Positions 8,748-40,962 of a stretch of DNA of 64,000 nt are shown here, one piece after another. The stretch's first letter is position 1. Each line of letters opens with the position of its first letter. Made by a program: the position numbers and the translations under genes. This stretch comes from Brucella pseudogrignonensis (GTDB lineage: Bacteria > Pseudomonadota > Alphaproteobacteria > Rhizobiales > Rhizobiaceae). The stretch lies in NCBI RefSeq assembly GCF_032190615.1, contig NZ_JAVLAT010000001.1:812501-876500 (forward strand), written 5' to 3'. A model generated the notes under the pieces. That model made no database searches. It was not told the origin of the DNA and worked only from the letters and a program-made list of their open reading frames with translations.

Positions 8748-8903
8748 GTTTATACAGGCGTATTCGCAAGGACCCGGTGAAAGCCCGGGTGGCTCTTCTG
8801 GCCGCCTATCCGCCAGACAACGCAACAACATCCCCCATTTTTACAATCGGCCATGTTGAATCGGACGGCTCTCAACGCCCGTCTTCTATTTGCGGAAAAT
8901 TCA

Positions 8904-24146: not shown

Positions 24147-24719
24147 TTAGGCGAAGCTTCTTAACGTAGCGCGGGAAGAACTGGCATCCGGGCCGTAATC
24201 CGCTTCTCCATCGATTTGCAATATTTCCTGCAAACGCGTGCGGGCTCGACTAACGCGACTCTTGATTGTACCGACAGCACAACCGCAAATCTCCGCCGCC
24301 TCTTCATAAGCAAAACCAGACGCACCAATCAGGATAATTGCTTCACGCTGGTCATCAGGAAGCTGCTCAAGTGCCGCCTTAAAATCCTGCAGATCAAGCG
24401 TCCCATATTGCGAGGGATGAACAGCAAGTTGCTCGCTGAATACGCCATCCGTATCTTGCACTTCGCGACCGCGTTTGCGCATCTGTGTATAAAATTCATT
24501 TCTTAGAATCGTAAAAAGCCAGGCCTTGATATTGGTGCCCAACTCGAACGATTCCTGTTTGGCCCAGGCTTTCATAATAGTATCTTGTACAAGATCATCG
24601 GCTCGGTCGTGCTGCCCGATCAATGAAACTGCAAATGCGCGCAGACTGGGCAAAGACGCGAGAAGCTCGCGCTTGAACTGCGCCATCTCCTCAGCCGACG
24701 GAACCAGTGCTGTGCTCAC
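24147..24719 (-). CDS. ecfG: General stress response sigma factor EcfG
   Basis: 190 residues, an ECF sigma factor. Region 2 is visible in GQHDRADDLVQDTIMKAWAK and FELGTNIKAWLFTILRNEFY, region 4 in LEQLPDDQREAIILIGASGF and YEEAAEICGCAVGTIKSRVSRAR. Context (nepR overlapping upstream, phyR divergent) identifies it as EcfG, released by NepR when PhyR is phosphorylated. EcfG recognises GGAAC-N16/17-CGTT, of which clear examples lie at 26083 and 27745. Its start codon overlaps the end of nepR by 29 bases, giving translational coupling. Confidence 0.95.
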   Translation of the reverse strand: MSTALVPSAEEMAQFKRELLASLPSLRAFAVSLIGQHDRADDLVQDTIMKAWAKQESFELGTNIKAWLFTILRNEFYTQMRKRGREVQDTDGVFSEQLAVHPSQYGTLDLQDFKAALEQLPDDQREAIILIGASGFAYEEAAEICGCAVGTIKSRVSRARTRLQEILQIDGEADYGPDASSSRATLRSFA

Positions 24720-24918
24720 GCGTACTCTCCTGTTCAGCCTGATCGAGTTTTTCCAACAAATCGAGAAAACGATCTGGAATGCTCTCGTCTTGTATCGAGC
24801 TATAAAGCGCTTTTAGTTTAAGACCGACCTCGCAGTTCGGACCCAAAATGTCCTTCTGGACGCGCCCGTTGAGCCGGATACCGGCCCCGTTCGCATGAAG
24901 GTGTTTCTTTTCAGTCAT
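24691..24918 (-). CDS. nepR: Anti-sigma factor NepR
   Basis: 75 residues. The conserved two-helix core, GLKLKALYSSIQDESIPDRF followed by LDLLEKLDQAE, is the NepR signature that wraps around EcfG or the sigma-like domain of PhyR. The polar N-terminus is disordered, as in other NepR proteins. First gene of nepR-ecfG. Divergent from phyR across a 236-base region with an EcfG-like promoter facing this way. Confidence 0.94.
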   Translation of the reverse strand: MTEKKHLHANGAGIRLNGRVQKDILGPNCEVGLKLKALYSSIQDESIPDRFLDLLEKLDQAEQESTREHSTGSVG

Positions 24919-25050: not shown

Positions 25051-25154
25051 TAAATACCATAATGCCGCGCTCTCTAACATTAACCTCATGGCTTCAGCGC
25101 TGTCAGGTTGATGTGAAAAGAATGAAAACTGCGGCAACGAGGAGTTATATAATC

Positions 25155-25949
25155 ATGACGTTATCGACGCGTATCGCGCCGCATCTTCCCTATCTCCGCC
25201 GCTTTTCACGCGCGCTTACAGGCACTCAGGTCTCTGGTGATGCGTATGTTGCAGCAACGCTGGAAGCTTTGATCGCAGATATAAGCATCTTCCCGCCGTG
25301 TTCTACAGACCGGATTGCGCTCTATCGCTTGTTCTGCAATCTTTATAAAACTGCATCCGTACAGGTACCCGAGCCTTCGTCCCAATTCGCTTGGGAAAAG
25401 CAGGCAGCACGCAATTTGTCCGTGATCGCACCATTGCCACGTCAGGCGTTTCTCTTGGTCGCAGTTGAAGGTTTTAATGATCGGGAAGCCGCTGAAATTC
25501 TGGAATTGAACGAAAAAGAATTCAGTTCCATCCTCGCTTCCGCCTCGACTGAAATATCAAAGCAAGTCGCAACGCGCATCATGATCATCGAAGATGAGCC
25601 ATTGATAGCGATGGATATTGAGCAAATGGTTGAGAGCCTCGGTCATGAGGTTGTCGGCATTGCGCGCACGAAAGACGAAGCAGTCGCGCTTTACAACAAA
25701 CAAAGACCAAGAATGGTGCTTGCCGATATTCAGCTTGCTGATGGCAGTTCCGGCATCGATGCCGTCAATGAAATTCTAACCGACGGCACCATCCCGGTGA
25801 TTTTCATCACAGCGTTCCCAGAACGCCTCTTGACCGGAGAGCGTCCCGAGCCGACTTTCCTTGTGACAAAGCCATTTAACCCAGACATGGTAAAGGCGTT
25901 AATCAGTCAGGCTTTGTTTTTTGAAGAATCTGCCGAAGCAGCGGCTTAA
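25155..25949 (+). CDS. phyR: Stress response anti-anti-sigma regulator PhyR
   Basis: 264 residues. The N-terminal half (about 1-135) imitates an ECF sigma factor (LPYLRRFSRALTGTQVSGDA, SVIAPLPRQAFLLVAVEGFN) and traps NepR; the C-terminal half (about 140-260) is a receiver with the acidic pocket IIEDEPLIAMD, phosphoacceptor aspartate in MVLADIQLADG, the threonine/serine in VIFITAF and lysine in FLVTKPF. The start is the ATG at 25155 after GAGGAG; the frame is open further upstream into the promoter region, but this is not coding. Phosphorylation by the HisKA_2/HWE kinases on either side is expected. Confidence 0.96.
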   Translation: MTLSTRIAPHLPYLRRFSRALTGTQVSGDAYVAATLEALIADISIFPPCSTDRIALYRLFCNLYKTASVQVPEPSSQFAWEKQAARNLSVIAPLPRQAFLLVAVEGFNDREAAEILELNEKEFSSILASASTEISKQVATRIMIIEDEPLIAMDIEQMVESLGHEVVGIARTKDEAVALYNKQRPRMVLADIQLADGSSGIDAVNEILTDGTIPVIFITAFPERLLTGERPEPTFLVTKPFNPDMVKALISQALFFEESAEAAA

Positions 25950-26082: not shown

Positions 26083-26108
26083 GGAACCAAAAGCATAGGT
26101 GGGACGTT
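26083..26108 (+). promoter_or_regulatory. Perfect EcfG promoter for the DUF1328 gene
   Basis: GGAAC (26083-26087), exactly 17 bases, CGTT (26105-26108), 31 bases before the ATG at 26140. Confidence 0.8.
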
Positions 26109-26139: not shown

Positions 26140-26304
26140 ATGCTTTATTACGCTCTTGTATTTCTCGTCGTAGCTCTCGTTGCAGGCGCTCTAGGATTTG
26201 GTGGTATCGCCGGTGCATCAGCCGGGATTGCGCAAATACTGTTCTTCGTATTTCTGGCGTTGCTGGTTATTTCCCTTATCGCCTCGGTGGTTCGCAAGGC
26301 TTAA
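26140..26304 (+). CDS. DUF1328 small membrane protein
   Basis: 54 residues: [20 protein letters not shown], a [12 protein letters not shown] turn and a second hydrophobic helix ending VVRKA. This two-helix protein (YtjA-like) is conserved in proteobacteria and has no assigned function. A GAGGAGA ribosome site and a perfect EcfG promoter precede it, so it is a predicted general stress gene. It lies between phyR and the HWE kinase. A strong inverted repeat (TTCACGCCGTC/GACGGCGTGAA, 26351-26386) follows. Confidence 0.88.
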
Positions 26305-26539: not shown

Positions 26540-27544
26540 ATGACAACACCTAACTCTTCCCGCAAAAATATCGAGACAGATGCATCCCGTCTTCGCGCCC
26601 TTCTGGGCGCTGTGAGAAACAACAATATCTGCGTTCTCTATCAATCGCCTGATCTGCTTTACATATGGGGTGAAAATATCCCTCCATACTGGCAGGAAAA
26701 GTGGAAAGCCGGCGGGCGGGATTGTGATTTCATTTTCTCAACGTCAATGTCTCGTCTGGAACATGCAAAGCGTGCCGCCTTAGAAACTGGCACCGCGCAA
26801 AATGTCGAACTGGCGATCAACGATGGCGATAAGTTACGCTGGATCGAATTCCATATCGATTGCGACCATGATTCGGATGGCAACGTACTCGGTCTCGTAA
26901 CGACAGCGCTTGAAATCAGCGAGCTGAAACGTCGCGAGCAGGTCTTAAAAACGCTGCTACGCGAAGTCAGCCACCGCTCAAAAAACTTACTGGCCATCGT
27001 TCAAAGCATTGCAAGTCAAACGGCGCGCTTCACTGATAGCGTTGACGACTTCCTGCTAAAATTTCGCGGACGCATTCAGTCTCTCTCTTACTCGCAAGAT
27101 CTCGTCACCGATTCCAATTGGCATGGTGCGCTCTTCCTCGACCTCGTGCATTCACAGATCGAAAAATACATCGATGTTACGGATGAACGCCTGACCATCG
27201 AGGGTGATGATCCTTATCTCTTCCCCGGCGCGGCGCTGCACGTTGGCCTGGCACTGCATGAATTAATTATCAACGCAACGTCTTTCGGTGGCCTGTCTAT
27301 TCCTTATGGCCGCGTCGTCATATCGGCTAAGGTTCAGCGCAGCGATAAGGGCGACGAAGAGCTGATCTTGCATTGGGAAGAGACCAATCCGTCCATGCCT
27401 GAGATCAAACATGATCCCCGCTTTGGCAGTGCAGTTCTCCAGCGCATCGTACCCTCATCCGTCGGCGGGCGAGCCGAGTATCGTGTTGATGGCAACGGCG
27501 CTGTTTACACGCTGACCGTGCCCGCTGAGCAGTTCGATTCCTGA
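26540..27544 (+). CDS. PAS-domain HWE histidine kinase
   Basis: 334 residues, no membrane segment. An N-terminal PAS-like domain (about 15-130; VLYQSPDLLYIWGENIPPYW, RWIEFHIDCDHDSDGNVLGL) is followed by the HWE phosphoacceptor region LLREVSHRSKNLLAIVQSIA, with the histidine in VSHRSKN, and an ATPase domain containing LALHELIINATSFGGLS and HWEETNP, the His-Trp-Glu that names the class. The N-box is ELIINATS. A cytosolic second input for PhyR is likely. A bidirectional terminator shared with the small RNA follows. Confidence 0.88.
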   Translation: MTTPNSSRKNIETDASRLRALLGAVRNNNICVLYQSPDLLYIWGENIPPYWQEKWKAGGRDCDFIFSTSMSRLEHAKRAALETGTAQNVELAINDGDKLRWIEFHIDCDHDSDGNVLGLVTTALEISELKRREQVLKTLLREVSHRSKNLLAIVQSIASQTARFTDSVDDFLLKFRGRIQSLSYSQDLVTDSNWHGALFLDLVHSQIEKYIDVTDERLTIEGDDPYLFPGAALHVGLALHELIINATSFGGLSIPYGRVVISAKVQRSDKGDEELILHWEETNPSMPEIKHDPRFGSAVLQRIVPSSVGGRAEYRVDGNGAVYTLTVPAEQFDS

Positions 27545-27569
27545 CCATTTTTTCTCGGCTAAATGATCC

Positions 27570-27738
27570 AGCAAAAGAAAAGCCGTTGCGATCTTCTGTC
27601 ACAACGGCTTTTCTTTAGAAAATGCGGAACGCCAGCTGCATAACGGGGGCTTCTGCGCGACATTCTCGCTGTTCACTTCATACGGGGAGGTCGAAGTAAA
27701 CCATGAAGGTCGCTTGCGGGGCGGGTTGCGACCTTCAT
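27570..27738 (-). ncRNA. Candidate EcfG-dependent small RNA with C-rich loops
   Basis: About 169 nt on the minus strand between a perfect EcfG promoter (27745-27769) and a strong terminator (27573-27616). The predicted 5-prime end begins a perfect hairpin, ATGAAGGTCGC/GCGACCTTCAT, whose 14-base loop holds CCCGCCCC. A second stem, GTTTACTTC/GAAGTGAAC (one G-U pair), exposes ACCTCCCC, complementary to a Shine-Dalgarno sequence. A third unpaired CCCCC follows. No reading frame of note. This layout resembles C-rich-loop riboregulators of alphaproteobacteria such as GsrN of Caulobacter, which is also controlled by the general stress sigma factor. Homology to GsrN is not claimed. Confidence 0.75.
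27573..27616. terminator. Bidirectional terminator for the HWE kinase gene and the small RNA
   Basis: AAAGAAAAGCCGTTG and CAACGGCTTTTCTTT, a perfect 15-bp stem with a 13-base loop. T-rich on both strands. Confidence 0.85.
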
Positions 27739-27744
27739 AATGAA

Positions 27745-27769
27745 AACGCCGGTCGCGATGATTGGTTCC
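27745..27769 (-). promoter_or_regulatory. Perfect EcfG promoter of the small RNA
   Basis: Minus strand GGAAC (27769-27765), 16 bases, CGTT (27748-27745). Starts one base after the fur/mur stop codon region, facing away from it. Confidence 0.8.
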
Positions 27770-27770
27770 A

Positions 27771-28196
27771 TTAGGATTTTATTTTTTTGCAATAAAGTTC
27801 GAGACGATGATGCACAATCTCATAGCCAAGTTGGCGTGCGATCTCTTCCTGCAGCTTTTCGATTTTATCCGAACGAAACTCAACGACGTCGCCTGAGTCC
27901 ATGTCAATGATATGGTCATGATGTGCGCCACTTGCTTGCTCAAAGCGCGATGGCCCACCTGCAAATGCATGACGGTGAATAGCACCCAACTCTTCAAGCA
28001 ATTTCATCGTGCGATAGACGGTTGACAGCGAAATGCTGCTATCAATTACCACCGCCCGCCTGAAAATCTCCAGTGCATCTGGATGATCTTCAGTCTCGGT
28101 CAAAATGTTCAGGATAATCCTGCGAGGCCGCGTAATACGAACGCCTGCCTGCCTCAGTTCCTGCTCATAATCGGGCTTCTTGTGCGATTCACTCAT
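27771..28196 (-). CDS. Fur-family metalloregulator (Fur/Mur type)
   Basis: 141 residues. The winged helix ([38 protein letters not shown]) and the dimerisation domain with metal ligands ([18 protein letters not shown]) are clear. The structural-zinc CxxC of enterobacterial Fur is replaced (IDMDSGD), as in alphaproteobacterial Fur/Mur. In rhizobia and Brucella this protein mostly represses manganese uptake (Mur), with Irr and RirA handling iron. It lacks the heme motif of Irr. Start at 28196 is favoured; a frame to 28241 would run over the palindrome at 28222. It may regulate itself through that palindrome. Confidence 0.88.
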
Positions 28197-28221
28197 AGAT
28201 TGATTATGCACGCACGGTGTT

Positions 28222-28245
28222 CCAGTTGCAAATTTTTGCAACTGG
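28222..28245. promoter_or_regulatory. Palindrome upstream of the Fur/Mur gene, likely operator
   Basis: CCAGTTGCAAA, TT, TTTGCAACTGG: a perfect 11-bp inverted repeat ending 26 bases before the start. The TTGCAA...TTGCAA core is like Mur/Fur sites of rhizobia. Confidence 0.6.
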
Positions 28246-30363: not shown

Positions 30364-30438
30364 TGGTACGCCCAAGGGGAATCGAACCCCTGTTTGCGCC
30401 GTGAGAGGGCGCCGTCCTGACCGCTAGACGATGGGCGC
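30364..30438 (-). tRNA. tRNA-Glu (anticodon CTC)
   Basis: Minus strand. Acceptor stem GCGCCCA pairs with TGGGCGT, CCA is encoded. Anticodon stem GCGCC/GGCGC encloses CTCTCAC, giving anticodon CTC. T-arm GGGGTTCGATTCCCC is canonical. The D-arm is CGTCTAGCGGTCAGGACG. Confidence 0.95.
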
Positions 30439-40749: not shown

Positions 40750-40800
40750 TGTTTCCTATCCTCACAGATAGCACGCGCCTCGTTGGGGAGGCGTGGCCCG
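40750..40800 (-). ncRNA. Probable serC leader RNA element
   Basis: Minus strand leader of serC with two short hairpins: CGCCTC, CCCAAC loop, GAGGCG (40776-40793), then CTATC, TGTGAG loop, GATAG (40756-40771), the second overlapping the ribosome site region. Position and shape fit the serC RNA motif reported upstream of serC-serA in Alphaproteobacteria. Assignment is by pattern, without covariance search. Confidence 0.6.
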
Positions 40801-40962
40801 CTGATGAAAATATCGGAAAGCAAAAATTTCACAAGACCGTCTAAGGCTTATTTTTTAAGCGCCGCGCGCTTGAACAGACGTACCAATATCGCTTTTACAC
40901 TTTAAAATTACAGCATGATTTCACCTCAAACCGACTGAAGTTTAAGGATTTATGCTCTAAAC

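Follow-up and report, generated by a model that had tools for sequence, protein, structure and literature searches.

A predicted small RNA with conserved C-rich loops and an EcfG-type promoter beside ecfG-nepR-phyR in the Brucella lineage

The minus strand of a 64,000-nucleotide stretch of the Brucella pseudogrignonensis genome (contig NZ_JAVLAT010000001.1, positions 812,501 to 876,500; here called the window) carries, from 27769 to 27571, the EcfG-type promoter motif GGAAC-N16-CGTT followed by three hairpins and a terminator. Judged by motif, fold and covariation, this appears to be a real RNA gene beside ecfG-nepR-phyR, whose stems and EcfG-type promoter have both been conserved. Related bacteria are already known to have RNAs like it, and this copy is a further one of that kind. 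An initial annotation, made from the letters of the window, had proposed a general-stress small RNA at this site; it was right about the kind of element, and its interpretation is partly supported by the comparisons reported here.

The exact motif GGAAC-N16-CGTT has a single match in the window, where 0.45 would be expected by chance, and across the B. pseudogrignonensis genome the box with a spacer of N15-18 is found 128 times, versus 355 for the reversed pattern. Because chance matches are this common, a single box is no proof, and its conservation counts instead. The perfect promoter described in the initial annotation (27769-27745) is kept at the same place and with the N16 spacer in all 31 genomes matched by the covariance model R1 described below, with CGTT at -10 in 30 of them and CATT in one, and in every case the box begins one base past the upstream gene's stop codon. 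The box places the predicted transcription start at about 27738, and the motif together with its conservation suggests that the RNA is probably transcribed by EcfG.

The RNA folds at -73.3 kcal/mol, compared with a shuffle mean of -42.3 (z -7.3), and none of 200 shuffles was as stable. The two hairpins with C-rich loops that had been proposed are present (27703-27738 and 27671-27701, with CCCC fixed in both), as is a terminator stem about 150 bases beyond the promoter (27573-27616, minus strand). In fold ensembles of 31 sequences, the CCCC of loop 1 is unpaired with a mean probability of 0.93 (lowest 0.38) and that of loop 2 with a mean of 0.91 (lowest 0.19); the corresponding value over the whole RNA is 0.35. 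A third C-rich patch, thought to be a free CCCCC, instead lies in the upper part of hairpin 3 (27669-27624). It is present in 11 of 28 scorable relatives and absent in the other 17, which rules it out as a shared element: two of the three patches emphasized at the outset are conserved and the third was overweighted. Similarly, the claim that the interval holds no reading frame stands for open reading frames (ORFs) of at least 40 amino acids within the RNA, but a 65-amino-acid ORF (27405-27602, minus) overlaps its 3' end. No Rfam family matches within the RNA at gathering score; nine matches are listed up to an expectation value (E) of 5, all below gathering score and most of them on the terminator.

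A blastn search with the stretch found matches in 30 of 100 relatives, all in one genus, which in the genome set used here takes in Brucella, Ochrobactrum and Falsochrobactrum; plasmid records gave no match. Alignment A1 (27 sequences, promoter left out), the basis of R1, has 31 pairs, of which 14 are changed on both sides, and 98.7% of its cells are paired. None of 500 shuffles scored as high; when the pairing partners are slid, the paired share falls to 34 to 50%. The CCCC of loops 1 and 2 is fixed across A1. The rows were chosen by a pattern that requires the box and, close to loop 1, a CCCC, such that the constancy of the box and of loop 1 is partly selected; of 23 named loci with the box that were collected without the CCCC filter, all 23 pass it. 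The covariance search proposed with the initial annotation gave one R1 copy in 31 of 35 genomes of the genus (28 of the 31 good ones), at E values of 6e-25 to 2e-9. Twenty-seven of these 31 genomes had built the model, and the four independent hits (G024, G025, G032 and G004) have E values of 9e-21 to 2e-9. In all 31 hits both loops have a C-rich core, and a permissive script finds a terminator-like stem. In two Falsochrobactrum loci (L061, L064), a long insertion separates the two arms of hairpin 3, with 107 and 75 nucleotides between them versus 15 and 14 in the model. Paenochrobactrum (L067, L071) and one metagenome-assembled genome (L058) have the upstream gene and a short gap, with no match.

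More diverged relatives were found in Pseudochrobactrum-type loci, where R1 matches weakly behind the same upstream gene (E 0.00057 to 0.12 in four of six) and hairpins 1 and 2 are present with C-rich loops. One of these six records (L087), titled Bacillus subtilis SK6B4, is probably mislabelled or contaminated. In alignment A2, with 28 rows of which the six Pseudochrobactrum-type ones were placed by hand, 16 of 19 pairs are changed on both sides and 96.2% of cells are paired. Loss of the stems in related genomes had been named as grounds for dropping the proposal; in both A1 and A2 the stems are retained and covary. The model built on A2, R2, matches seven genomes of genus g136, all of which have GAAAC-N16-CGTT, with a -35 box that differs from GGAAC. 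Among 394 family, 297 order and 385 class genomes, R2 found nothing else convincing. We judged its weak matches in 13 family and seven order genomes (E 2e-4 to 0.05) to be chance, and an EcfG box is found at 0 of 21 such loci, one of which (L170) is cut off and incompletely covered; the class genomes gave two additional weak matches (E 4e-4 and 8e-4). At three loci of one family genus (L171, L174, L175), the weak matches are three hairpins with CCTCCTCCC loops, which we take to resemble the cuckoo / alpha-r14 RNAs.

In 80 genomes of the family, representing 79 genera, we searched a stretch of about 11 kb around nepR, oriented with nepR on the minus strand, for minus-strand GGAAC-N15-17-NGTT at 6.3-9.8 kb into the stretch, followed by a C-rich hairpin loop. 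At least one such loop follows 26 of 55 boxes in this zone versus 10 of 407 boxes elsewhere, and two or more follow 17 of 55 versus 1 of 407. The idea of an equivalent place arose from the first 20 loci, and the zone was slightly widened after a first count. We repeated the comparison on 60 later loci with a zone (6.8-9.9 kb) fixed before those loci were seen, and obtained at least one C-rich loop after 21 of 38 zone boxes versus 7 of 293 elsewhere (p 3e-17), and two or more after 13 of 38 versus 1 of 293. Random 120-nucleotide windows from the first 20 loci (n=2994) held at least one C-rich loop in 62 cases and two or more in one, and the detector recovered at least one loop in all 23 Brucella-lineage rows used as a positive control and two in 19. 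Counterparts are present at 26 of the 80 loci, in 25 genera. Their spacer is N16 in 25 of 26, and the -10 element starts with C in 19. Opposite them, the convergent gene encodes an HWE kinase in 22 cases and PhyR in four. The sample includes a Pseudochrobactrum locus (L316), whose own RNA is missed by the GGAAC pattern. At seven loci (L252, L268, L276, L308, L309, L312, L314), other EcfG boxes in the zone precede ORFs beginning MNW-, presumably CsbD-like. Within the family, therefore, a shared place and architecture are shown; we do not claim common descent or sequence homology. In two loci of other families within the order (L336, at + 2586 after orientation, and L343, at + 6747), an EcfG box is followed by large C-rich loops away from the equivalent place.

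The features of the locus are collected in Table 1. The RNA gene is flanked by two convergent genes, encoding a Fur-family protein and an HWE histidine kinase. The position beside ecfG-phyR given in the initial annotation is borne out: the RNA is 2.8 kb from nepR and adjoins the HWE kinase gene, and ecfG and phyR lie beside nepR. The best model for the Fur-family gene is Fur (106 bits versus a cut-off of 146); Irr is a poorer name for it, with Irr models scoring far below the Fur model. Since the Fur model is best and the B. ovis gene following phyK is named mur in the published account (PMC12354254), we call this gene mur, which it probably is. A second EcfG-type box (26083-26108, plus) lies 31 bases 5' of a DUF1328 gene (26140-26304), and a box is found at a similar position in 21 of 24 RNA-bearing named loci when box position alone is compared. 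Elsewhere in the window, Rfam matches are a sul1 RNA (8767-8822, plus), a serC leader (40751-40803, minus) and a tRNA (30367-30438, minus).

Table 1. Features of the predicted small RNA locus, in coordinates of the window
Feature	Position	Strand	Remarks
EcfG-type promoter	27745..27769	minus	GGAAC-N16-CGTT; GGAAC 27769-27765, CGTT 27748-27745
Predicted small RNA	27571..27738	minus	about 168 nucleotides, start and end inferred; motif, fold, covariance model
Hairpin 1	27703..27738	minus	11 bp; CCCGCCCC in loop at 27718-27725
Hairpin 2	27671..27701	minus	ACCUCCCC in loop; ACCTCCCC at 27684-27691
Hairpin 3	27624..27669	minus	well conserved stem; CCCCC 27645-27649 in upper part
Intrinsic terminator	27573..27616	minus	stem, then T-rich sequence
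Fur-family regulator, probably mur	27771..28241	minus	upstream of RNA; 156 amino acids; profile score and B. ovis synteny
HWE histidine kinase (phyK-like)	26540..27544	plus	convergent with RNA
ecfG	24147-24719	minus	
nepR	24691-24918	minus	
phyR	within 25131-25949	plus	

We consider it likely that this element serves the general stress response as a small RNA working in trans, transcribed by EcfG and acting on mRNAs through its C-rich loops, and that in the Brucella lineage it corresponds, by place and architecture, to an RNA gene lying 3' of phyR and its HWE kinase gene in other Rhizobiaceae. PhyR would free EcfG from NepR, and EcfG would then transcribe the RNA from the box behind mur, as the motif and its conservation suggest. 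The RNA is predicted to fold into its three hairpins and terminator such that hairpins 1 and 2 would expose C-rich loops, which stay fixed while the stems drift by compensatory changes. These loops would most likely pair with G-rich stretches in mRNA leaders or ribosome-binding sites, and by analogy with GsrN and katG in Caulobacter this pairing may change the translation or stability of those mRNAs. Several observations weigh against this interpretation. In the same genome, sequences exactly complementary to the two loops occur before ATG at 8 and 12 sites, with no convincing common target, and the transcription, EcfG dependence and targeting of this copy are predictions. R1 has no match in four of the 35 genomes of the genus (G012, which is 72% complete, G013, G027 and G031), and in B. 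gallinifaecis (L044) the neighbours are kept around a short gap with no match to the RNA. Among the 80 family loci, 54 lack such an RNA at the equivalent place (38 with no box in the zone, 16 with a box and no C-rich loop). When the place rule was extended to 40 loci of the order that belong to other families, it failed, with no enrichment (1 of 24 versus 3 of 169).

The position of the box raises another explanation, in which the sequence functions mainly at the end of the mur mRNA, as its 3' untranslated region and terminator, and terminates the convergent kinase gene as well; the RNA would then have no trans role, or arise mostly from mur mRNA by read-through or processing. In all 31 model hits the box lies one base past the stop codon, so that a mur transcript could not fit its own terminator ahead of the RNA, and the terminator stem could serve both convergent genes. 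On the other hand, the promoter motif is fixed while its spacer is free to vary, the C-rich loops are kept while the stems covary in both alignments, and the nearest co-directional ORF of the family counterparts (mechanically called and unannotated) is at least 187 amino acids in 19 of 26, compared with the 156-amino-acid Fur-family gene. We regard this explanation as unlikely. With mur ending immediately before the box, transcription of mur would continue through the RNA, and the RNA may have a second origin in that transcript.

The conserved loops might also belong to a small RNA as described that works as a general anti-Shine-Dalgarno decoy or sponge instead of on specific mRNAs. Loop 2 in the window reads ACCUCC, as does the anti-Shine-Dalgarno sequence of 16S rRNA, and other RNAs with C-rich loops occur in the family. 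ACCUCC is not kept in the genus, however, where the element retained in loop 2 is the (C)UCCCC core alone. With the specific partners known for GsrN (PMC5869019) also speaking against a general decoy, we think it improbable. Least credible, and in our view very improbable, is a short leaderless mRNA starting at the predicted transcription start. In 26 of 31 relatives hairpin 1 does begin with an ATG, but this ATG is part of a covarying stem and missing from the other five, and its frames end after 20 to 74 codons, shifted by small loop indels between close relatives; the 21-codon frame from hairpin 1 is not conserved, and coding potential was rejected.

Returning to a trans-acting RNA under EcfG, the pattern across the family invites a broader and more tentative proposal, to which we give somewhat less than even chances. 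One old small RNA gene may have stayed 3' of phyR and the HWE kinase gene through much of Rhizobiaceae, retaining an EcfG promoter as well as two or three C-rich loops even as its sequence became unrecognizable, and in the Brucella lineage it may also have come to serve as the 3' end of mur transcripts. If so, the general stress response would have a built-in post-transcriptional output that is invisible as one family to sequence or covariance searches, and manganese control could be linked to the stress response through the mur-transcript 3' end. This family-wide pattern is the part most worth following: the covariance model, the place rule and the loop rule together indicate where to seek counterparts in many genera, and the bases of interest lie in the two fixed C loops rather than in the third patch.

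Among known RNAs, the cuckoo / alpha-r14 group consists of hairpins presenting C-rich loops with a repeated CCUCCUCCC motif. The C-loop hairpins are common to the RNA described here; the CCUCCUCCC motif is not found in it, and no Rfam family matches there at gathering score. Two Brucella RNAs may or may not be the same as this one. Bsr6 of B. abortus needs RpoE1 and has an RpoE1 box, sharing a stress-sigma box with the present RNA, and its loss left mouse spleen colonisation unchanged (PMC12772402). Loss of Bmsr1 in B. melitensis weakened the strain, by a review's account (PMC9751625); its orientation (-> -> <-) fits a gene between mur and phyK, and by our own interpolation its locus tags fall roughly there. 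Coordinates that would tie either to this interval did not emerge from a literature search on the two names and on locus tags. From the phenotypes given in these sources, the two disagree if both are this RNA.

The precedents invoked for such an RNA do exist, in ReC64 (PMC3892343) and GsrN (PMC5869019), and S. meliloti has RpoE2-dependent small RNAs (PMC3616915). ReC64 of R. etli, whose expression is abolished in an ecfG1 mutant, lies downstream of phyR-tcrY, measures 88 nucleotides by Northern blot and is conserved in two other Rhizobium genomes (PMC3892343). It is also a small non-coding RNA with GGAAC-N16-CGTT, placed downstream of phyR and a histidine kinase gene in the ecfG locus; the RNA described here is predicted to be longer (about 168 nucleotides), and the two are likened by description, place and promoter, not by sequence. 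For R. etli, S. meliloti, Agrobacterium and B. abortus, gsrN-like RNAs close to this locus were predicted by Tien et al. 2018 (PMC5869019); the text consulted does not state the interval of the B. abortus prediction. Beyond that study, a limited literature search found no earlier statement of a family-wide place rule. EcfG drives stress survival in alphaproteobacteria, and in the literature consulted it is only for Caulobacter GsrN that the action of an RNA under EcfG is demonstrated. Of the 67 GsrN partners analysed, 32 are predicted to pair with its C-rich 5' loop; katG expression falls when either the loop or the katG site is altered and recovers with compensatory changes (PMC5869019). With GsrN and the gsrN-like RNAs, as described there, the present RNA has in common an EcfG-class promoter (here GGAAC-N16-C(G/A)TT), an exposed C-rich loop near the 5' end (that of hairpin 1) and, as is usual for them, a place near the stress locus; unlike them, it has two conserved C loops.
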